A DNA stretch of 64,000 nt from the NCBI RefSeq assembly GCF_007970185.1, contig NZ_CP042431.1, positions 3,348,001 to 3,412,000 of the forward strand, in the 5' to 3' direction. The translations under genes were made by a program, and so were the position numbers. A model generated the notes under the pieces. The model was not told where the DNA came from, made no database searches, and saw only the letters and a list, made by a program, of their open reading frames with translations. Of this stretch, positions 870-56,404 are shown one piece after another. Numbering within the stretch: the first letter of the stretch is position 1; every line of letters starts with the position of its first letter. The DNA is from Pseudobacter ginsenosidimutans (GTDB lineage: Bacteria; Bacteroidota; Bacteroidia; Chitinophagales; Chitinophagaceae).

Positions 870-1793
870 ATGAAAAAGCTGCCAAAACCGGCTACCATCC
901 TGCAATTACTCAAAAAAGCCTTCGGGGAGTTCCAGCAGAACGATCCTTTGCGGATGGCTGCGGCTACGGCCTTCTTTGCCACTTTTGCTCTTCCTGCCAT
1001 CATTCTCATCCTCATTGTTGTATTTGGTCTGGTGATGGACCGCAGATTTGTAGGACGCAGCCTGGTAGAGGCTTTGAGCGGAGTGCTGGGCCCCAACTCG
1101 GCTGAAGAGATCAGGAATACGCTCCGGAATGTGCGCACGCTTGCTTCAACATGGTATATCGCCACCGGCGGTTTTATCTTTTTGTTATTTGTGAGTACCA
1201 CGCTCTTCAAAGTGATCAAAGATTCCCTGAACCAGCTCTGGCGCATCCGTCAGTCGAATGGCAGGGGCGTGGTGAGGCAACTGAAACAAAGAGGCACTTC
1301 GTTCCTGGTCATTCTTTTTGCCGGCATTTTCTTTTTGGCTACCCTGATGGTGGAAGGCGGAGTTGCTTTGCTACGTCAGCAACTGCCGGACCTGCTGCCC
1401 GGTGAAGGATCTGTGATCTGGGCTATCACCAGTCAGGTAGTGTCTTTGTCAGTTGTTACCTGCTGGTTCTCCATCCTGTTCCGTTATCTGCCGGACGGAC
1501 ATACTACCTGGCGTATAACCATGGGCGGTGCCTTCTTCACAGCCTTGTTGTTTACGCTGGGTAAGTTCCTGCTCCGTTTCCTGTTGTCTTATTCCAATAT
1601 GAGTACGGTATACGGCACGTCCACTTCCTTTGTGCTGATGCTGCTCTTCATTTTCTATTGCGCCTTCATCTTTTATTATGGCGCCTGTTTCCTGAAAGTT
1701 TGGGCAAAACATAAGAACAAGCCCATTATCCCCCGGTACTATGCGGAAGCTTATACCTGGCAGCAGGTGAAAGAAGAATCGCTTGACCGGTAA
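870..1793 (+). CDS. YihY/BrkB-family inner membrane protein
   Basis: 307 residues with about six hydrophobic segments (roughly 31-55, 95-114, 143-166, 183-205, 218-240, 251-276), the layout of the YihY/virulence-factor-BrkB family. The N-terminal amphipathic stretch before RMAAATAFFATFALPA, where A-rich helix 1 begins, is typical of the family. The biochemical role is unsettled; the old label of ribonuclease BN was an error for E. coli YihY. The bestrophin-like gene starts only 25 bp downstream on the same strand, so the two may be co-transcribed. Length fits the family's usual 280-330 residues. Confidence 0.85.
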   Translation: MKKLPKPATILQLLKKAFGEFQQNDPLRMAAATAFFATFALPAIILILIVVFGLVMDRRFVGRSLVEALSGVLGPNSAEEIRNTLRNVRTLASTWYIATGGFIFLLFVSTTLFKVIKDSLNQLWRIRQSNGRGVVRQLKQRGTSFLVILFAGIFFLATLMVEGGVALLRQQLPDLLPGEGSVIWAITSQVVSLSVVTCWFSILFRYLPDGHTTWRITMGGAFFTALLFTLGKFLLRFLLSYSNMSTVYGTSTSFVLMLLFIFYCAFIFYYGACFLKVWAKHKNKPIIPRYYAEAYTWQQVKEESLDR

Positions 1794-1818
1794 TCACTGA
1801 GTATTATTTTTGTAAAAT

Positions 1819-2703
1819 ATGATCGCTTATAATCCTAAAGACTGGTTCACTTTTGTGTTCCGCTTCCATAAGGCGGACACCCTGAGAAAATTGGCGCCGC
1901 TGATCCTGGGTATCAGCGCCTATTGCGCTATCATCGCATACCTTGAACTGGAGATCTTTCAACTGTCGCAGAACAACCACCTGAAGAATATCTCCATGAT
2001 GAATAATCTCCTGAGTTTCGTGATCTCCATGCTATTGGTGTTCCGCACCAATACTGCGTATGACCGTTGGTGGGAGGGAAGGAAATTATGGGGCTCGCTG
2101 GTGAACAACAGCCGTAACCTTTCCATCAAGCTCAACGCTATCCTGGGACCAACAGAAGATGAAGAAAAGAAATTCTTCCGCCGCATCATTCCCATGTATG
2201 CTGCCGTGCTGAGCCGTCACCTGCAAACAGAACAAACGCGCCTGGCGCTGGATACTGCGGAACATCCTGAATGGGAACACCTGGACAAGAACAAGCATAT
2301 GCCGAATCAGATCGCTTCACTGATGTACAAACGCGTGACCCGGTTGTACGAGCAGGGAAGGATCAAGGGTGATCAGCTGATCGTGATCAACGCGGAGTTG
2401 CAGGCATTCACTGATGTATGCGGCGCCTGTGAGCGCATCAAGAATACGCCCATTCCATTTTCCTACAGTGTATTCCTGAAAAAATTCATCTTCTTCTACG
2501 TAATGACCCTTCCACTGAGTTTTGTGTTCAGTCTGGGTTATATCGCCATACCTGTTGTGGCATTCATCTTCTATGTACTGGCAAGTCTTGAAATGATCGC
2601 GGAAGAGATCGAGGATCCTTTCGGCGCTGATGAGAACGATCTTCCCACTGAAAAGATGTCGGACAATATCAAGAAACATGTAAGCGAGATCTTCGCTTCT
2701 TAA
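1819..2703 (+). CDS. Bestrophin-family ion channel protein
   Basis: 294 residues of the bacterial bestrophin (UPF0187/RFP-TM) family, pentameric anion or cation channels of the inner membrane. Visible hallmarks are the N-terminal segment YNPKDWFTFVFRFHKADT, a first membrane helix near 24-45, a second with SFVISMLLVFRTNTAYDRWWEGR (the family's highly conserved R-T-x-x-A-Y-x-R-x-x-E-G block, residues about 67-89), and the C-terminal membrane pair near 210-250 followed by EEIEDPFGADENDLP, the conserved acidic cytosolic segment. Its stop codon overlaps the convergent MtfA-like gene by 4 bp. Confidence 0.92.
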   Translation: MIAYNPKDWFTFVFRFHKADTLRKLAPLILGISAYCAIIAYLELEIFQLSQNNHLKNISMMNNLLSFVISMLLVFRTNTAYDRWWEGRKLWGSLVNNSRNLSIKLNAILGPTEDEEKKFFRRIIPMYAAVLSRHLQTEQTRLALDTAEHPEWEHLDKNKHMPNQIASLMYKRVTRLYEQGRIKGDQLIVINAELQAFTDVCGACERIKNTPIPFSYSVFLKKFIFFYVMTLPLSFVFSLGYIAIPVVAFIFYVLASLEMIAEEIEDPFGADENDLPTEKMSDNIKKHVSEIFAS

Positions 2704-3473
2704 TTGCTGGCGGGATCCTGTTTGAAGATCATCTCGAGGTATTCGTAGAGCTCGGGATGTTTTTCTTTCAGCAGGTCGGGCCGCTCGAAGAAGTATTCAG
2801 AGATAACGGCAAAGAATTCGCTTTTATCGGAAGCACCGTAAGGATTGATGTCTGAGCGGTTCTTCCTGATCTCTTCTATCTGTTGTTGCATGAGGTGCAT
2901 CCATGGTATGGAATATTGATGCGCAAGCAGGTTTTCGGGGATGCCATCTACTGCGCCATCTGATTTATCCAGGAGATGCACAAACTCGTGGATGGCGGTA
3001 TTGTTCTTATCGCTGGTGATCTCGAAACCCTGGCGGAGCGCATGTTGCGAGAGGATCATCTTTCCATTCATATAACCGCTGCCCACCATTCCCATGATGG
3101 CGCGGTCTTTTCCTTCGAATTTAAATTCTTCGTTGAACGTATCCGGATAGATGAGTACATCTGTGAGATTGCGGTACTCCCATTCCGGAAATCCGAAGAT
3201 GGGGATCACGGCGCTGCTGGCAACATAGATCCTGTCGCGCTCCTCAATTGTAGCGCCGATGCCTTCTATTCTAACATTGGCGAGGAAGGACCCGATCTTT
3301 TCACGGAAGCGCTGTTTGTCTTTTTCATCCAGTCGCTGGTAAAAACGGACATGCGTGCTGAGGATATCAACGTCTGCTTTGCTCAGGTCAACCGGTGGTT
3401 TTTGTTTTGGCTTCCATTTCCAGAGGATCACACAAACGGCGGCAATGCCCAGCAGGATGTAAACAGGTACCAT
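2700..3473 (-). CDS. MtfA-like zinc metallopeptidase (M90)
   Basis: 257 residues. A membrane anchor spans about residues 3-20 and a soluble domain follows. The catalytic zinc motif is HEFVH (His162, Glu163, His166) in the context NTAIHEFVHLLDKSDG, matching the MtfA/M90 family, relatives of the anthrax lethal factor protease. In E. coli MtfA is cytosolic and interacts with the repressor Mlc; this one carries an N-terminal helix and so is probably membrane-attached. The gene lies 10 bp downstream of the M48 peptidase gene on the same strand, suggesting a two-gene protease operon. The native substrate is unknown. Confidence 0.88.
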   Translation of the reverse strand: MVPVYILLGIAAVCVILWKWKPKQKPPVDLSKADVDILSTHVRFYQRLDEKDKQRFREKIGSFLANVRIEGIGATIEERDRIYVASSAVIPIFGFPEWEYRNLTDVLIYPDTFNEEFKFEGKDRAIMGMVGSGYMNGKMILSQHALRQGFEITSDKNNTAIHEFVHLLDKSDGAVDGIPENLLAHQYSIPWMHLMQQQIEEIRKNRSDINPYGASDKSEFFAVISEYFFERPDLLKEKHPELYEYLEMIFKQDPASN

Positions 3474-3483
3474 AGGTTATCGT

Positions 3484-4560
3484 TTAGAAATTTTCATAGA
3501 GTGCATGAAAGGTAGTCTGTAAAGTTGAATCGGCGGTTGGAGCGGAAGGGTAATTTTTCAGCTGCGCATTCACATTGGCCACTCTCTTATCAAAAACAGG
3601 GTGTGTGCTGAGAAAGTTCACTGCCTGTGAACCTCCTTTTGTTGCATCGTTGAGGAGGTTCATCAGTCGCACCATTCCTTCGGTATCCACCTTGTTCTCA
3701 TGCATCAGTTTCATGCCATTGTTATCGGCTTCGGTTTCCAGTTCACGGGAATATTCGAGACCTTTGAGCCTGTCCGCATTTTGCACCAGTATGGAAGTGA
3801 TACCGGCGTCACTGCCAAAGATCAGTGTCAGGAACATCTGCCTCGACAGGCTCTTGAACATATTGTTCAGCGAGTGACGGAGAGCAATATGCGAAGCTTC
3901 ATGTCCCAGTAATGCGGCCAGTTCTTCCGGTGTTTTCATGTTGTCGAGAATGGCGTCGAACACTACAATATGCCCACCCGGAACGGCAAAGGCGTTTACT
4001 TCAGGACTTTTCACCACCGTGATCTCGATAGGATAACCCGTTTGGTAGTGCAATTGTTTATAGAACTGGTTCAGCAATTTTGTTTTAACAGAATCCACTT
4101 CATAGGCCGCGATGGTGGCTTCATACATTTCCTGACCAAGACTGATCTCGGTTTCTTTTGAAAATGAGCCGGCCACTTTTCCGCCAAGCCAGGGAGCTAT
4201 CCAGATATAGCCGATGAGGATCAGTCCGCAAATGATGCCTGCAATCAACACCATTTTACTGAGTACAGAATTGAACGCGCGCGCTGGTGCATTACCGGTA
4301 AATTTCTGGTGACGGAAATTCTTTTTGATGGCCTGCAATAATTCCTGACCGCTGAACTGCAGATTTGAATTTTCACCTCCCGGACCTGCATAATGCAGTA
4401 TGTACCCGTTGGTAGTTTCTTCAAGTTGTTTGATATGCTCTCCCAGCCAGTGAATGTCCTGCTGCTGGTTGTTCTCGTCTTTATACCTGATAGTGAGTGT
4501 TACCGAAGAAAGGATAACGGTTACGGGCTGGTGGTTATACGTTGCAGAATAAGTAGTCAT
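3484..4560 (-). CDS. M48-family membrane metallopeptidase with N-terminal extension
   Basis: 358 residues. Residues 1-95 form a soluble region with many beta-type stretches that is not part of the peptidase; one hydrophobic helix lies at about 102-124; the M48 peptidase domain fills the rest. The zinc motif is HEASH (His220, Glu221, His224) followed by ALRHS, with a likely third ligand in YSRELETEADNNG (around 275-282), the classic M48 arrangement shared with HtpX, LoiP/BepA and Ste24. Preceding AFAVPGGHIVVF is also a conserved M48 block. It probably acts in envelope quality control. It begins the likely operon with the MtfA-like gene. Confidence 0.88.
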   Translation of the reverse strand: MTTYSATYNHQPVTVILSSVTLTIRYKDENNQQQDIHWLGEHIKQLEETTNGYILHYAGPGGENSNLQFSGQELLQAIKKNFRHQKFTGNAPARAFNSVLSKMVLIAGIICGLILIGYIWIAPWLGGKVAGSFSKETEISLGQEMYEATIAAYEVDSVKTKLLNQFYKQLHYQTGYPIEITVVKSPEVNAFAVPGGHIVVFDAILDNMKTPEELAALLGHEASHIALRHSLNNMFKSLSRQMFLTLIFGSDAGITSILVQNADRLKGLEYSRELETEADNNGMKLMHENKVDTEGMVRLMNLLNDATKGGSQAVNFLSTHPVFDKRVANVNAQLKNYPSAPTADSTLQTTFHALYENF

Positions 4561-38134: not shown

Positions 38135-38746
38135 ATGTCCCGATCCATCGATGTAAGAAATTATTTAGACCCCCTGTTCACTTACGTGCATCGCTATACG
38201 CAATTGCGCAAGGATGAACTATTGCAGCTCCTGCCATTCCTGGAGATAAAACTGTATGAGAAAAAAGAGATGATCCTGACCGCAGGAGAGGTAGACAATT
38301 ATCTCAATATCGTGGTGAAAGGAATGGCCCGCAAATACATCTCGCTTCCCAAGAAAAGGGAAGTGACGCTGCAACTGGCCACAGAAGGGCATTTCATTCA
38401 GTCCGAAGTGAGCTTCAATACAAGGCGGCCATCAGAGCTGAGCGTGCAGGCTGTAGAGCAGACCATCCTGATCCGCATCGAGCACCGCAAACTTGAAACC
38501 ATCATGCTGAGCTTCCCCTGGGCTGAAACGATCGGCAGGTTGCTGGTGGTAGAACTGGCAGCCGCCAGGGAGAAAAGACAATACAATGTGAGAATGAAAT
38601 CTGCCCGCCAGCGATTCCTCGATTATACAGCCAACCATCCGCAGATGATGCGGCGCGTGCCGATGAATGTACTGGCATCTTATCTCAATATGAAGCCTGA
38701 AACCCTGAGCAGGCTCAAGCGGTCAGTGAAAGACAAATTCAGTTAG
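38135..38746 (+). CDS. Crp/Fnr-family regulator, second of a tandem pair
   Basis: 203 residues from ATG 38135 (MSRSIDVRNYLDP); the frame also has an ATG at 38105 that overlaps the upstream gene by 20 bp and adds ten residues without family match. Beta barrel ~25-130 with EKKEMILTAGEVDNYLNIVVKG and VTLQLATEGHFIQSEVSF; winged helix ~140-200 with SYLNMKPETLSRLKR. It shares the domain plan and motif spacing of the first gene, consistent with duplication. The stop overlaps the convergent Nramp gene by 4 bp. Confidence 0.88.
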   Translation: MSRSIDVRNYLDPLFTYVHRYTQLRKDELLQLLPFLEIKLYEKKEMILTAGEVDNYLNIVVKGMARKYISLPKKREVTLQLATEGHFIQSEVSFNTRRPSELSVQAVEQTILIRIEHRKLETIMLSFPWAETIGRLLVVELAAAREKRQYNVRMKSARQRFLDYTANHPQMMRRVPMNVLASYLNMKPETLSRLKRSVKDKFS

Positions 38747-40632
38747 TTCCCCACATTCACCACCAGCACAGGGATATTGATCTCATGCCTTACCGAGTTG
38801 ATGGTTTCGCCATACAACCAGTCTTTCAATCCTCGGTGCCGGTGTGCGCCGATCACCAGCAGGTCAGCCTGCTGGTCCTTCACCAGCCTCGCGATCTCCT
38901 TGCTCCGGTTGCGGAAGCCGAGATGCCCGGATGCATTGAATCCTTTTTCCTGCATTTGCTGAACGTAAAAGTGTAAACGCTGTTCATCATTGCGCGTTTC
39001 AAAATCATCGCTTTCCAGACCGAGCATATGTGCGGAAGGACTTTCCACTACGTGTATGAGGATATATTCTGAATCTGTTTTGCCCTGCCCGATCGCATGG
39101 GATATCAACTGGCTGTCGTGCTCCCCGAATTCCATCGCCACGGCAATTCTTTTGTACGATGGTGTTTCCAGTTGCTGCAGTCCTGTAAGTTCCGGGTGCA
39201 TATCGATAGAGCCCGCGGCCTTTCTTCTCGCAAACAATGGATAGAAAGTGATATACACGAGCAGCGCCAGGAAGAAGAACCCGCCTGCAATGATCACAGA
39301 CTTCCAGAAGATACTGCCGGATTCATCGAAGAAGCCAGTGGTTTGACTGAGCACCATCTTGATATTGAGGTATACCAGTACGGAGGCGATCAGCCATGCG
39401 GACACTTTTACGATCGGCTTGATAGCAAATTCCCCCATCGTTTTCTTATCGCTCACAAAATGTATCAGGGGGATAACGGCAAAGCCCAGTTGCATACTGA
39501 GTACCACCTGGCTGAAGATGAGGAGGCTGTCCACTTCCTTATCGCCGAACAATCCGATCACGATGATGGCCGGGATGATGGCCAGCAGTCGCGTGAGCAG
39601 CCTGCGCATCCAGGGATTGATCCGCAAGCGCAGGTAACCTTCCATTACGATCTGCCCCGCGAGCGTGCCCGTAATGGTGGAGCTTTGTCCGGCTGCGATC
39701 AATGCCACAGCAAACAATATGGGAGCCAGTTTGGAACCGAGCATACCTTCCAGCAACTGGTGGGCTTCTCCGATCTCGGCAACGCCCAGACCATTCTTGA
39801 AGAAGACGGCAGCAGCGAGGATCAGGATAGCGGCATTCACCAGGAAAGCCACATTCAGCGCCACGGCGGAATCCACGAAACTCCATTTCAGTGCCTGTTT
39901 GATACCCGGAGAAGTTTTGCTGATCTTACGGGTTTGCACAAGCGCAGAGTGGAGGTAAAGGTTATGCGGCATCACGGTGGCACCGATGATACCGATGGCG
40001 ATGTACAGCGCTTCATCATTCGGGAAGGTTGGAACGAATCCTTTCACTACTTCAGAAGCTACCGGCTCCGCCATGATGATCTGCACAAGAAAAGACACTG
40101 CCACAACGGCCACCAGGCCGATGATGAAGGCTTCCATCTTGCGGATGCCCAGTCTTTGCAGCAACAACAACAATAAAGTATCGAAAACAGTAATGGCCAC
40201 ACCCCAGATCAGGGGAAGACCGGTGAGGAGATGTATACCGATGGCCATACCCAGCACTTCGGCCAGGTCTGTGGCGGCAATGGCGATTTCTGCGAGGATG
40301 TAAAGAACGAAGTTGACGCCCTTCGGGTAGGTCTCCCGGTTAGCCTGGGCCAGGTCCCGGCCACGGACGATTCCGAGGCGGGCGGAGAGGCTCTGCAACA
40401 GCAATGCCATGATATTGCTCATCAGCAGTACCCACAGCAGGGCATAACCGAATTTGGAGCCGCCTGCAAGATCGGTGGCCCAGTTGCCCGGGTCCATATA
40501 GCCAACGCTTACGAGATAGGCCGGACCGAAAAAGGAAAGAACTCTTTTCCAGCGGTTGGTATGTTTTGATACATCTACGGAAGCATGTACTTCACTGAGC
40601 GACCTGTCTGGCGGATGGTGCTTATTCATCAT
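38743..40632 (-). CDS. mntH: Nramp divalent-metal transporter fused to a universal stress protein domain
   Basis: 629 residues. Residues ~35-470 are the Nramp core of about eleven helices with metal-binding motifs GYMDPGNWATD in helix 1 and TVMPHNLYLHS in helix 6. Residues ~492-629 are a UspA domain (YKRIAVAMEFGEHDSQ ... DLLVIGAHRHRGLKDWLYGE). The Usp ATP motif is degenerate: GAHRHRG lacks the first Gly spacing and the final Ser/Thr is a GET, so nucleotide binding may be lost. It imports Mn2+ (or Fe2+) with protons. Its start overlaps the DtxR-type repressor gene by 11 bp, so the two form one operon. Confidence 0.95.
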   Translation of the reverse strand: MMNKHHPPDRSLSEVHASVDVSKHTNRWKRVLSFFGPAYLVSVGYMDPGNWATDLAGGSKFGYALLWVLLMSNIMALLLQSLSARLGIVRGRDLAQANRETYPKGVNFVLYILAEIAIAATDLAEVLGMAIGIHLLTGLPLIWGVAITVFDTLLLLLLQRLGIRKMEAFIIGLVAVVAVSFLVQIIMAEPVASEVVKGFVPTFPNDEALYIAIGIIGATVMPHNLYLHSALVQTRKISKTSPGIKQALKWSFVDSAVALNVAFLVNAAILILAAAVFFKNGLGVAEIGEAHQLLEGMLGSKLAPILFAVALIAAGQSSTITGTLAGQIVMEGYLRLRINPWMRRLLTRLLAIIPAIIVIGLFGDKEVDSLLIFSQVVLSMQLGFAVIPLIHFVSDKKTMGEFAIKPIVKVSAWLIASVLVYLNIKMVLSQTTGFFDESGSIFWKSVIIAGGFFFLALLVYITFYPLFARRKAAGSIDMHPELTGLQQLETPSYKRIAVAMEFGEHDSQLISHAIGQGKTDSEYILIHVVESPSAHMLGLESDDFETRNDEQRLHFYVQQMQEKGFNASGHLGFRNRSKEIARLVKDQQADLLVIGAHRHRGLKDWLYGETINSVRHEINIPVLVVNVGN

Positions 40633-41311
40633 ATTTCACAAATACGTTTTTGGCCACGTGCTCACTCACGGTGACGATGGTCTGATTTCTGATTTTCAAT
40701 TCCAGTGAATTGTCGAAGGCGAACACCTTCTTCACTTCTATCCTTGTGCCGAGGCCGATCTGTTTGTGTTTGAGGAGCTCCAGCATTTCCGGGCTCTGAT
40801 CACCGATGCCGCTCACTTCACCGGTCTTGTTCACGGGAAGATGCAGCAGGTCTACCTGCCTGATGAGGGTGAACCTTCCCTGGCTATCGGGGATAGGATC
40901 TCCATGCGGATCTGTTTTGGGGAAACCGAGGAATTCATCCAGGCGGTCTATCAGTTGCTTGCTGCTGATATGTTCCAGCTCTTCTGCAATCTCATGCACT
41001 TCATCCCAGCCGAAATTCAGTTTCTCCACCAGGAAATATTCCCAGAGGCGATGCTTGCGGATGATCTGCAGCGCCACTTTCCTGCCTTCCTGGCTTAACT
41101 TGAAACCCTTGTAGCGTTCATAGATGAGGAGCTTCTGCGCTTTCAGCTTTTTGAGCATATCTGTAACCGAAGCCGGACGGGTCTGCAGTTCATTGGCAAC
41201 ATCATTGGTAGTAACCACACCATCACTTTTCTGGAGATGGAAAATGGCCTTGAGATAATTTTCTTTGCTGCTGGAAAACTTCTGCATCGATTCCCTTTTC
41301 GCTTCACTCAT
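40622..41311 (-). CDS. DtxR/MntR-type metal-dependent repressor
   Basis: 229 residues. N-terminal winged HTH (~12-75: NYLKAIFHLQKSDGVVTTND, ASVTDMLKKLKAQKLL), metal-binding dimerisation region (~75-150: HRLWEYFLVEKLNFGWDEVHEIAEELEHI with the His/Glu/Cys-poor ligand set), and a C-terminal FeoA/SH3 domain (~160-225: IGLGTRIEVKKVFAFDNSLEL). It probably represses its own operon when Mn2+ or Fe2+ is ample. The overlap with mntH makes Mn-responsive control of the transporter the simplest reading. Confidence 0.94.
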   Translation of the reverse strand: MSEAKRESMQKFSSSKENYLKAIFHLQKSDGVVTTNDVANELQTRPASVTDMLKKLKAQKLLIYERYKGFKLSQEGRKVALQIIRKHRLWEYFLVEKLNFGWDEVHEIAEELEHISSKQLIDRLDEFLGFPKTDPHGDPIPDSQGRFTLIRQVDLLHLPVNKTGEVSGIGDQSPEMLELLKHKQIGLGTRIEVKKVFAFDNSLELKIRNQTIVTVSEHVAKNVFVKYDE

Positions 41312-44205: not shown

Positions 44206-46014
44206 ATGAAGCAGCTAATTGTTGTCGCAGTTTTTTCATTATTCCATTTTTCTTCCGCGTTGGCAAAGCCCGGCCCCGGAAAGAATGCAGCATCCTCCAC
44301 TTTGAAGTCGGCCATCGTATACAGAACAGGCGCTGAGCTGTTCCATACGGCCAGGATAACGCTGGTGCAGGGCAACAATGAATTTGTGATCGAAGGGCTC
44401 AGCAACCAGATAGAGCTCAACAGTGTGCGGGTGACTTCAGATAACAGCGGGCTTGCGATCATGTCTGTTGAATTCGGAAAACAATTCCTGGAGAAAGAAA
44501 ATACTTCCCCAGAGGTGAAACGATTGAAGGATTCTGTTGAAAAAGCAGAGCGGGAGCTGGCGGTTGTGCAATCGGATATCGTTACTGTCAAAGATCTGCA
44601 GGCGGTACTGTCTGCCAACAGATCCATTGCAGGATCACAGACCGGAGTGAGCGTGGCGGAGCTGACAAAGCTGATGGATTACTACCGGGCAAAGGCAACC
44701 GAATTACAGAAAGAGTCGCTGCAGCTGTCCGATAAGGAAATCAAACTACTGAAGCAGATCGCGCGACTGCAAAACCAGGTAAAGGAAGAAGAGAAAAAGA
44801 ATACGGTCACTTCCGGTCAGCTTGCCTTTCAGGCTTTCTCCCCGATGGCCGGAACATACACACTCAATATTTCGTATATCACTCCCTATGCAGGCTGGAA
44901 CCCGGCCTATGATCTCCGTGTGGAAAGCATCAGCAAGCCGGTGAGTATCGGTTTCAAAGCAAAGGTGAGCCAGACAACGGGCCTCGACTGGAAAGGCATA
45001 AAGCTGGTGCTGGCTACTTCCATGCCCAATATGAATGCCACTGCGCCTGAATTACAAAGCTGGTTGCTGAGCTATCGCAGTATGCACGATCAGCTTTCAG
45101 GAAAAGTGGCGGGTGTGCATATCCGTGGTGTTAATTCAATAGTCGAGAATAAATCGCTCAGTGAAGTGGTGGTAATGGGATATGGAGGCGCCAGGCAGGA
45201 GAGGGAAACTCCTGAGCCGGTATATGTAGTGAACGGAGATGTGGTATCGAAAGAAAAATTCAGCCAGATCAACAAGAATGCTATCAAATCCATCAATATC
45301 CTGAAGGGTGATAATGCCGCTGCCATCTATGGCTCCCGCGCAGCAGGTGGTGCAACAGTGGTAACACTCAAGGAGGGATTGCAGGATTATGTGGCGGAGA
45401 ACGATAATCAGCTCAATGTAACCTATGAGATCGATCTGCCTTATGACGTGCCTACTAACGGAAAGGAACAGGTGGTAGCATTGAAAGACCGTACAACTCC
45501 TGCCATCTACAAATATTTTGCAGCGCCGGTGAAAGACAAGGATGCATATTTGCTCGGATGTATTGCTGACTGGGAAGGTCTTCAATTGCTGCCGGGTGAA
45601 GCCAATATCATTTTTGAAGGTACTTATGTGGGCAAGACCCAGCTTAATCCCGGTTCTACCAGCGATACGCTGAACCTCACGCTGGGCAAGGACCGCCGCG
45701 TGGTGATCACCCGCGAGAAGCTCAAGGATTTCAGCAGCGTGAAATTCCTTGGCAGCAAGAAACTACAAACTTTCACTTATGAGATCACGGTGAAGAACAA
45801 TAAGAAAGAAGCCATCCAGATGCAGGTGAAAGATCTGTTCCCGATCCCCACAGACAAGGAGATCGAAGTGGAACTGCTCGAATTCAGCGGTGCTGAGGTG
45901 GACAAGGAGAAATCCTTCCTCACCTGGAATCTCGATATCAAGCCGGGGGAATCACGCAAACTGCGCATGAGCTACAGCGTTAAATATCCGAAGGATAAAT
46001 TACTTCCTTTATAA
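44206..46014 (+). CDS. DUF4139 protein with a TonB-plug-like insert
   Basis: 602 residues from ATG 44206, which begins a signal peptide (LIVVAVFSLFHFSSALA); the frame extends to 44158 without signal. The first region (~30-100) and coiled-coil segment (~105-200) belong to the mucoidy-inhibitor MuiA/DUF4139 layout, and the later part has the DUF4139 pattern (YAGWNPAYDLRV, and VKDLFPIPTDKEIEVELLE). Between ~296 and 392 sits an inserted stretch with VAGVHIRGVNS, LSEVVVMGYG, PVYVVNGDVVS and NAAAIYGSRAAGGATVVTLK, which mirrors the plug domain of SusC proteins. No beta barrel follows. Exported; function unknown. A terminator follows. Confidence 0.85.
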   Translation: MKQLIVVAVFSLFHFSSALAKPGPGKNAASSTLKSAIVYRTGAELFHTARITLVQGNNEFVIEGLSNQIELNSVRVTSDNSGLAIMSVEFGKQFLEKENTSPEVKRLKDSVEKAERELAVVQSDIVTVKDLQAVLSANRSIAGSQTGVSVAELTKLMDYYRAKATELQKESLQLSDKEIKLLKQIARLQNQVKEEEKKNTVTSGQLAFQAFSPMAGTYTLNISYITPYAGWNPAYDLRVESISKPVSIGFKAKVSQTTGLDWKGIKLVLATSMPNMNATAPELQSWLLSYRSMHDQLSGKVAGVHIRGVNSIVENKSLSEVVVMGYGGARQERETPEPVYVVNGDVVSKEKFSQINKNAIKSINILKGDNAAAIYGSRAAGGATVVTLKEGLQDYVAENDNQLNVTYEIDLPYDVPTNGKEQVVALKDRTTPAIYKYFAAPVKDKDAYLLGCIADWEGLQLLPGEANIIFEGTYVGKTQLNPGSTSDTLNLTLGKDRRVVITREKLKDFSSVKFLGSKKLQTFTYEITVKNNKKEAIQMQVKDLFPIPTDKEIEVELLEFSGAEVDKEKSFLTWNLDIKPGESRKLRMSYSVKYPKDKLLPL

Positions 46015-54813: not shown

Positions 54814-54901
54814 CCACTCAACGCTCTCAATTAGCCATTCAGCCTAACTATTGTTAGTATTCCGGTGCTCGTTTATATTTTACCATCAGAAATTGGGAAT
54901 A

Positions 54902-56404
54902 ATGAAATCATACTTACTACTTGCTTTCACGGGCATGTCGTTGGCTGCGGTTGCTCAAAAGCCCGCCAACCCGAAGCCCTATGCAGCTACAATCACTGCT
55001 GCTGAACTCAAAACGCATCTCTACATTGTAGCCTCCAAAGAAATGGAAGGACGGGAAACCGCCACGGAAGGGCAACGCAAAGCCGCTGCCTATATCCAGG
55101 ACCATTTCCAAAAACTGGGCCTGGCGCCTGGTAATGGAAGCAGCTACCAGCAGGCATTTCCGGTTTTCCGTGATAAGGATGGAAAAACATCCATCGAAGT
55201 GAATGGAAAAGATTTTACAGATATCATGGGATATGGCAGCGCCAATGAAGCCACTTATTACCTCAGTGAAGTGGTATTTGTAGGCGATGGTCTTACAGAC
55301 AGTACGCACGACAGTTACAAAGGACTGGACGTGGCAGGCAAAGCTGTGCTGGTGATGCCCGGCAAACCGAATACAAATTACCGTCGCCGTATAACCGATC
55401 CCGGCTCCAACTTCGTGGAGAATGCCCGCCTGCATGGTGCGGCTGTTGTGTTCTATGTTTCCGCTTCTACCAGGGGCGGCAGAAGCTTTGGTGGCAATAT
55501 GTATACCAACGCTTTCAAGCCAACTGCAGGGCCGAACATATTCTTCGTTTCCGATGCAGTTAGCAAGGCCATTATGGGAGCCGATAACTACAAATCCGAC
55601 AGCGCTGCCGTGAAAAACGGTAATGCACAAGCGAAAACCTACAAAGCTGAAGTGATCCTGCAAAACAAAAAAACGATCGAGCGCCTGGAAAGCACCAACG
55701 TGCTGGGGGTGCTGGAAGGAACTGATAAGAAAGATGAATACCTCTTCATCACTGCCCACTACGATCATATCGGCAAACATGGCGATGAGATCAACTATGG
55801 CGCGGATGATGATGGCTCCGGTACCGTGGCCATCCTGGAAATGGCTGAAGCTTTTGTGAAAGCGAAAAAAGAAGGGAAGGGCCCGCGCAGGACCATCGTG
55901 TTCATGTGTGTGTCCGGTGAAGAGAAAGGCCTCTGGGGCTCCGAATACTACAGCGAGAATCCCATCTTTCCTTTGGATAAAACAACTGCCGACCTCAATA
56001 TCGATATGATCGGAAGGATCGATCCCAGCCGCAAACATGGGGACAGCACCAATTACGTGTATGTGGTAGGCGATGATAAGCTCAGCTCAGACCTGCGCCC
56101 CATCAGCGAATCCGTGAACAAGAAGTACACGAAGCTGGAGCTGGATTACAAATACAATGATCCGAACGACAAGGAACGTATCTATTATCGCAGTGACCAC
56201 TACAATTTCGCACGTAAAGGTGTTCCTGTGATCTTCTATTTCAATGGTGTGCATGCAGACTATCACAGGCCAACCGATACGCCTGATAAGATCGGATATG
56301 AAATGCTGGCAAAAAGAGCACAGCTGGTATTTTACACGGCCTGGGAAATGGCCAACAGGAATGAAATGCTGAAGCGTGATATTCCTTTACCGGTAATGAA
56401 TTGA
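54902..56404 (+). CDS. M28-family secreted aminopeptidase-like protein
   Basis: 500 residues from ATG 54902 (signal MKSYLLLAFTGMSLAAVAQ), preferred to the ATG at 54851. PA-like domain (~110-230) inserted between the N-terminus and the peptidase. Zinc ligands of M28: His287 and Asp289 in ITAHYDHIGKH, Asp302-304 in YGADDDGSGTVA, Glu340/341 in CVSGEEKGLWGSEYY, and a later Asp/His (NLNIDMIGRID; DHYNFARKG). Periplasmic metallo-aminopeptidase or glutaminyl-cyclase-like. Stop adjoins the convergent DnaJ gene with no gap. Confidence 0.92.
   Translation: MKSYLLLAFTGMSLAAVAQKPANPKPYAATITAAELKTHLYIVASKEMEGRETATEGQRKAAAYIQDHFQKLGLAPGNGSSYQQAFPVFRDKDGKTSIEVNGKDFTDIMGYGSANEATYYLSEVVFVGDGLTDSTHDSYKGLDVAGKAVLVMPGKPNTNYRRRITDPGSNFVENARLHGAAVVFYVSASTRGGRSFGGNMYTNAFKPTAGPNIFFVSDAVSKAIMGADNYKSDSAAVKNGNAQAKTYKAEVILQNKKTIERLESTNVLGVLEGTDKKDEYLFITAHYDHIGKHGDEINYGADDDGSGTVAILEMAEAFVKAKKEGKGPRRTIVFMCVSGEEKGLWGSEYYSENPIFPLDKTTADLNIDMIGRIDPSRKHGDSTNYVYVVGDDKLSSDLRPISESVNKKYTKLELDYKYNDPNDKERIYYRSDHYNFARKGVPVIFYFNGVHADYHRPTDTPDKIGYEMLAKRAQLVFYTAWEMANRNEMLKRDIPLPVMN

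Follow-up and report, generated by a model that had tools for sequence, protein, structure and literature searches.

The window, the whole stretch of 64,000 nucleotides of Pseudobacter ginsenosidimutans DNA analysed here, encodes a DUF4140/DUF4139 protein of the MuiA family in which a linker of DUF4139 holds an insert that, judged by its sequence, is of SusC-type transporter origin. In Bacteroidota, glycans are imported by SusC proteins. The insert consists of a disordered string with the Ton-box-like motif LSEVVVMGYG and a subsequent half-plug of about 52 residues that is modelled with confidence. Across Bacteroidota, inserts recur in the same DUF4139 linker. As a possibility that falls somewhat short of being probable, we tentatively propose that the window protein is a periplasmic client docked to TonB via its Ton box, with TonB binding deduced from the motif.

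Host protein and insert

The gene (44206..46014, plus strand; ORF list, Pfam, NCBIfam and AlphaFold2 model) encodes 602 amino acids. In an earlier sequence-only reading of the window a TonB-plug-like segment had been described inside this protein; the strings it quoted and the reading frame were located as claimed, with residue 296 of 602 at 45091. The DUF4140 N-terminal domain (PF13600, 59.4 bits) covers residues 37-130 (44314..44595, +), and the AlphaFold2 model contains a helical hairpin of residues 102-137 and 150-197 (44509..44796, +). DUF4139 (PF13598, 192.2 bits) extends over residues 220-596 and surrounds the Plug segment; its first part runs from residue 220 up to the insertion site (44863..45075, +; PF13598 and alignment), and its second part, ending at residue 596, lies at 45373..45993 (+). 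Both domains are present and the MuiA family profile TIGR02231 scores 250.5 bits against its cut-off of 112.6 in NCBIfam, so that the protein belongs to this family. It gave the single DUF4139 match in a profile search of its own genome, which is one contig of 7.8 Mb. The model shows an N-terminal hydrophobic signal-like helix (residues 2-18), no cysteine lipobox was seen in the first residues, and a lipobox-like pattern occurs in just 5 of the 156 homologues described below. The window protein is probably an exported envelope protein, presumably located in the periplasm.

The insert starts with residues 291-332 (45076..45201, +), which have pLDDT values below 50 and are probably disordered. 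This part includes GKVAGVHIRG (45100..45129, +), a string typical of SusC plugs that was read in the sequence, and LSEVVVMGYG (residues 318-327; 45157..45186, +), which scores 23.8 with a Ton-box PSSM (shuffle p 0.002). The half-plug mini-domain of residues 338-389 (45217..45372, +) corresponds to the C-terminal half of the SusC plug according to Pfam Plug, pLDDT and PDB profile matches. Searched with the whole protein, Pfam Plug (PF07715) matches residues 291-383 with profile positions 23-107 of 107 at 28.9 bits (cut-off 23.9); the isolated segment scores 31.4 bits. In the AlphaFold2 model (68-sequence alignment, mean pLDDT 85) residues 341-390 have pLDDT block means of 91-95, with strands at 339-342, 345-347, 360-366 and 383-388 and helices at 349-353 and 368-375, while the first half of the plug forms no confident folded unit. 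The sequence-only reading had taken the segment, including LSEVVVMGYG, for the plug signature of SusC transporters. A plug was indeed recognized by Pfam above the cut-off, but only its C-terminal half (about 338-389) is modelled as folded; LSEVVVMGYG is a SusC-type string, but on the basis of its sequence it is a Ton-box-like motif and not plug core, and it sits after GKVAGVHIRG. The absence of a barrel and the DUF4139 flanks, both part of the same reading, were confirmed: among the Pfam matches no barrel family follows the plug segment, and DUF4139 follows instead. The NTE (PF13715) is absent from the Pfam matches of the window protein as well, and FecR-like partners, suggested at the time, find no support, with no STN domain among these matches.

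The SusC origin is seen in profile comparisons. A profile of 31 half-plugs matched RagA and SusC chains in the PDB with a best E of 1.5e-16, and all 11 PDB sequences matched at E 0.01 were TonB-dependent transporters, namely eight named RagA/SusC, one TonB-linked outer membrane protein and two siderophore/heme receptors. In NCBIfam, residues 291-410 scored 66.6 bits with SusC/RagA TIGR04056, far under the full-length cut-off of 368, and the SusC/RagA signature scored 32.3 bits against a cut-off of 46.2. In a Foldseek search with the window model no PDB entry matched at E 0.001 or better, and no transporter was among the 50 matches listed; the DUF4139 part weakly resembles adaptor mu2 and AcrA/MacA. 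The plug fold is therefore supported by sequence profile and model and not by fold search. Compared with SusC/RagA transporters (PF07715, PF13715, Ton box), the DUF4139 proteins share the half-plug, the Ton-box-like motif and, in relatives, the NTE, whereas the window protein has no barrel, contains the C-terminal plug half as the only confidently folded plug part, shows a changed motif order and has its insert set inside DUF4139.

Due to its SusC/RagA type, evident from the names of most matched PDB sequences, and to the wealth of plug genes in its own genome, the half-plug could be thought to mimic a plug and, by binding SusC barrels or the machinery that assembles them, to act as a chaperone, as a competitor or in quality control. 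We regard this as quite unlikely, since a barrel mimic would not explain the many relatives with an NTE or a Ton box but no half-plug, and the missing confident fold of the first plug half in the window model argues in the same direction.

Inserts in the DUF4139 linker across the phylum

DUF4139 proteins were collected from 147 genomes of the bacterial family (77 with a match), from 296 genomes across the phylum (matches in 108, above the cut-off in 92) and from seven named contigs. The family HMM gave 168 ORFs in 162 loci, and 156 proteins of at least 440 aa were retained and aligned; L037, L095, L195 and broken or short rows were left out, and the fragment places G044:C31, G095:C706 and G107:C163 of family genomes lie outside the sample. 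Places of the phylum search were taken to E 2.3e-36, with weaker ones only in G147 and G352. Two rows are duplicates (L031 of L016, L032 of L004), so that 154 linkers are distinct.

All inserts lie in one linker of DUF4139, which in the window protein is bordered by 'LATSMPNMNATAPEL' and 'QLNVTYEIDLP'. A half-plug is present there in 43 of the 156 rows (41 distinct half-plug sequences) and a SusC-type NTE domain in 36; 77 rows have one or the other, two have both (L183 and L187), and 79 have neither, with 56 rows also lacking the Ton box. Among the 90 rows from the family and the named contigs 40 have the half-plug and 14 the NTE, compared with 3 and 22 among the 66 rows of the phylum search. 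The closest named relative found is Pseudoflavitalea rhizosphaerae, at 90% identity. Since 43 of the 156 rows, among them a 90% identical protein, have a half-plug in this position, chance and an assembly join are ruled out; with 41 distinct sequences under coding constraint, the probability of an assembly or gene-fusion artefact is negligible. The structure model contains a small folded unit, the half-plug, and the search for further DUF4139 proteins with a plug insert was successful, and on both counts the plug segment of the sequence-only reading holds. Like other members of the MuiA/DUF4140-DUF4139 family (TIGR02231, PF13598, PF13600), the window protein has both domains and reaches the family cut-off, but its linker is enlarged by the transporter-derived insert, in contrast to the 79 homologues with neither inserted domain.

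In L183 and L187 the NTE, Ton box and plug are ordered as in the N-terminus of SusC, and PF13715 and PF07715 are above the cut-off in both. The model of L183 shows a confident NTE (residues 311-380, pLDDT block means 85-93) and a confident half-plug (441-490, 86-93), and its Ton box at residues 389-398 lies in a stretch with pLDDT below 50; in the window model, too, the box lies in a low-confidence stretch and the half-plug is confident. The L183 NTE has 39% identity to the SusC NTE structure 9hfj (rmsd 1.2 over 76 columns, TM 0.87 by target) and 39% to 6ytc, and the E-values of both were better than that of human carboxypeptidase D (16%). The nine DUF4139 proteins scanned with Pfam have inserts made up of TonB-facing parts only (NTE, Ton box, plug half), with barrel fragments absent from the matches listed.

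Ton-box-like motif and history of the insert

A simple pattern served to pick 20 boxes in own-genome transporters, from which the Ton-box PSSM was built; a threshold score of 12 was applied. The boxes came from 20 of 30 fetched own-genome plug loci; in the other 10 the scripts used found either no frame or no box of this kind, and consequently even known transporters do not all show the motif. At this threshold the motif was found in 74 of 156 linkers, 18 of them without half-plug or NTE, and not once in the 75,911 residues outside the linkers of the same proteins, where five weaker matches of at least 9 reached at best 11.2. It occurs in linkers with half-plug (27/43), with NTE (31/36) and with neither domain (18/79), and is therefore common to the linker types; it also recurs alone in short linkers. 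With 16 of 43 half-plug rows lacking the box at score 12, and with the many state changes on the flank tree given below, the motif is not essential to the family. In the window, it was found twice in 27,485 residues of stop-to-stop frames of at least 150 aa. The second match (LSEVVFVGDG, score 16.3) looks like chance and lies in an ORF at 54848-56401 (+) that by eye reads like an M28 peptidase.

In the SusC protein Bt1763 the Ton box is DEVVVTG and is preceded by the NTE, and when VDEVVV was removed or changed to alanines, growth on levan was impaired as in a SusD deletion (PMC7782687). The end of the NTE fold may account for part of the motif, because weaker L-x-EVV-like strings follow NTE-like domains elsewhere (L204, L205, L209, L214 and L217 in G257 and G052, scores 2.9-11.4). 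Among 14 NTE-matching stretches of these two small genomes a box score of at least 12 was reached in one only, L216 (G052:C31:448500-453500), a frame of 1093 aa with an NTE-like domain and LKEVVVTAAG (score 19.1), for which the genome search gave no Plug match.

The order of the motifs in the insert differs from that in transporters. As a control, 19 own-genome transporters with both box and plug end found were used, with 60 residues before the box included: a GKVAG-type string follows the box, ahead of the plug end, in 11 of 19, and none has one in the 60 residues preceding the box. Of the 46 plug-labelled DUF4139 rows, 18 have the string ahead of the box, with the order classes KTDY (9), KITDY (3), IKTDY (2), KTIDY (2), KTDIY (1) and KT (1), whereby the patterns are loose and the I pattern also matches NTEs, for which reason rows with NTE alone were left out.

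The pooled dN/dS of 10 chosen pairs of relatives, with several dS values saturated, was lowest in the flanks (0.08), higher in the half-plug (0.16) and highest in the disordered string (0.27); half-plug values of single pairs, where computable, spanned 0.04 to 0.68. These values indicate that the insert is constrained and not decaying. Nine positions of the half-plug are invariant across 31 sequences. Between the window protein and L016 the box is kept largely via synonymous changes, and the residues before it differ. Across 25 pairs the six core codons of the box show 54 synonymous and 37 non-synonymous changes, whereas the eight codons before and after it give 27:142 and 20:141, a comparison that is biased towards the box because the pairs were selected for both having it and the neighbouring codons were taken ungapped. 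In the pair L057/L061 the flanks are nearly equal (branches 0.026 and 0.028), yet the box is present in only one of the two, and in L041/L092 the flanks are again nearly equal and the string is different.

The main rival to docking at TonB is that a permissive linker collects susC fragments by illegitimate recombination, which would be folded and tolerated but functionless. The sharp differences of the insert in just these two close pairs, its faster evolution relative to the flanks and the plentiful plug genes of the own genome, with at least 150 Plug matches (150 of 262 candidates scored, all matched), most of them in long frames, speak for such a process. Only 3 TonB_C matches stand against these Plug matches in the own genome. 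Two of the plug matches in short frames, L199 and L200, read by eye like split or ordinary transporters. A half-plug dN/dS well below 1 and the invariant positions, the restriction to TonB-facing parts without any listed barrel fragment in the nine scanned proteins, and a box that recurs by itself in short linkers speak against a functionless insert. We consider this explanation rather unlikely.

On a FastTree of the flanks, parsimony demands at least 8 changes (gains or losses) for the NTE, at least 9 for the plug and at least 27 for the Ton box, the plug labels of L006, L015 and L172 in this count being pre-plug strings only. In the half-plug tree, where most forks are unresolved, 31 of 43 DUF4139 rows stand together apart from the transporters (SH-aLRT 90), and the other 12 are placed elsewhere, several of them among transporters; a single half-plug clade, and with it one origin, was not rejected (AU p 0.246, 58 columns). 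Several independent captures of the half-plug are likely, short of proof, and an old complete insert of NTE, box and plug with repeated loss is conceivable as well.

Recent gene conversion from susC found no support for the window insert: the best other DNA match in the own genome has 80% identity over 64 bases (best of 40 scored of 66 candidates). The gene at the best outside DNA match, L197, looks by eye like a usual SusC-type gene. For L041, compared with G133/G044, and for L061, compared with G009/G109, the search gave no long donor; the Ton-box stretch of L061 matches another place in G009 with 94% over 32 bases, which is too short for a decision. The domain transfer from a SusC gene postulated in the sequence-only reading is thus upheld with respect to the origin and not with respect to a single recent event; the window insert is an old feature of the lineage, recurrent and partly re-ordered.

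Possible docking to TonB and further carriers

TonB binding by the window insert is plausible because a Ton-box-like motif is present. For the proposed docking, an exposed DUF4139 linker would have acquired from a SusC-type transporter the N-terminal end that faces TonB, that is a flexible string with a Ton-box-like motif and then a half-plug domain. As happens in transporters, the C-terminal domain of TonB would pair with the Ton-box strand and would thereby tether or pull the non-transporter DUF4139 protein. The half-plug might serve as a second contact or as a folded stop beside the box.

Similar arrangements are described for other proteins. PorE, an envelope protein that is not a transporter, carries an NTE-like carboxypeptidase domain; force use of the TonB/TolA kind was proposed for it, and an NTE-like domain is implicated in the interaction of TBDTs with TonB in Bacteroides thetaiotaomicron (PMC12204202). 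Unlike the DUF4139 proteins, PorE has a different host fold; the passages of the paper on which we draw mention no half-plug, and the term ‘TonB box’ is absent from its main text (PMC12204202). TonB-dependent colicins are likewise non-transporters with a Ton box in an unstructured stretch, but they are imported toxins with the box near the N-terminus in the case described, and no plug is mentioned in the account of that case (PMC11658791).

The third comparison is an M56 (BlaR1-like) protein of G052, a genome of the same bacterial family, which resembles the window protein in bearing a half-plug on a non-transporter and differs in having an M56 peptidase domain and no DUF4139. This protein, L196 (G052:C19:18200-22400; 1569-3671, minus strand), joins M56, a borderline half-plug (22.1 bits in hmmscan with a cut-off of 23.9, 24.8 bits in the genome search) and TonB_C (29.3 bits, above the cut-off) in one chain, and hence both sides of the transporter/TonB interface would be found on one sensor-type protease. 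The own genome has two M56 matches (PF05569). At L198 (G000:C1:3306300-3309400, plus strand) an M56 gene is overlapped by a second frame (645-1706 and 1604-2599) that has DEVVVVGYG and a half-plug (30.1 bits); the two are either separate genes or the product of a frame break. A signalling relay, in which the plug half of the DUF4139 insert meets the TonB-type domain of M56 sensors bearing TonB_C and plug, could build on the union of these domains in L196 and on the overlap of the own-genome ORF with an M56 gene. These are just two cases, and no M56 gene was recognized by eye beside the DUF4139 gene in the window at 40-50 kb, so that such a relay appears improbable.

If the window protein does dock to TonB, some non-transporter proteins may also be plugged into the TonB machine, and the MuiA/DUF4139 family would gain a testable link to the envelope energy machinery. 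We speculate further, with considerable doubt, that Bacteroidota have TonB-powered or TonB-tethered non-transporter envelope proteins, in that DUF4139 proteins, some M56 sensors and perhaps PorE repeatedly took up SusC modules (NTE, Ton box, half-plug), and that the Ton motor pulls on processes other than uptake. A full-text literature search, with most subscription journals outside its coverage, returned no paper treating such DUF4139 inserts by title or abstract start. The function of the SusC NTE has been called unknown (PMC7782687). A non-transporter family with TonB-facing modules would offer a simple, probably soluble system for questions of binding by NTE, Ton box and half-plug, and the same system could show whether the Ton motor drives anything besides uptake.

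Elsewhere in the window, translations read by eye indicate an Nramp-type metal transporter with a universal-stress-like tail at 38743-41311 (-), beside an ORF for a DtxR/MntR-like regulator.
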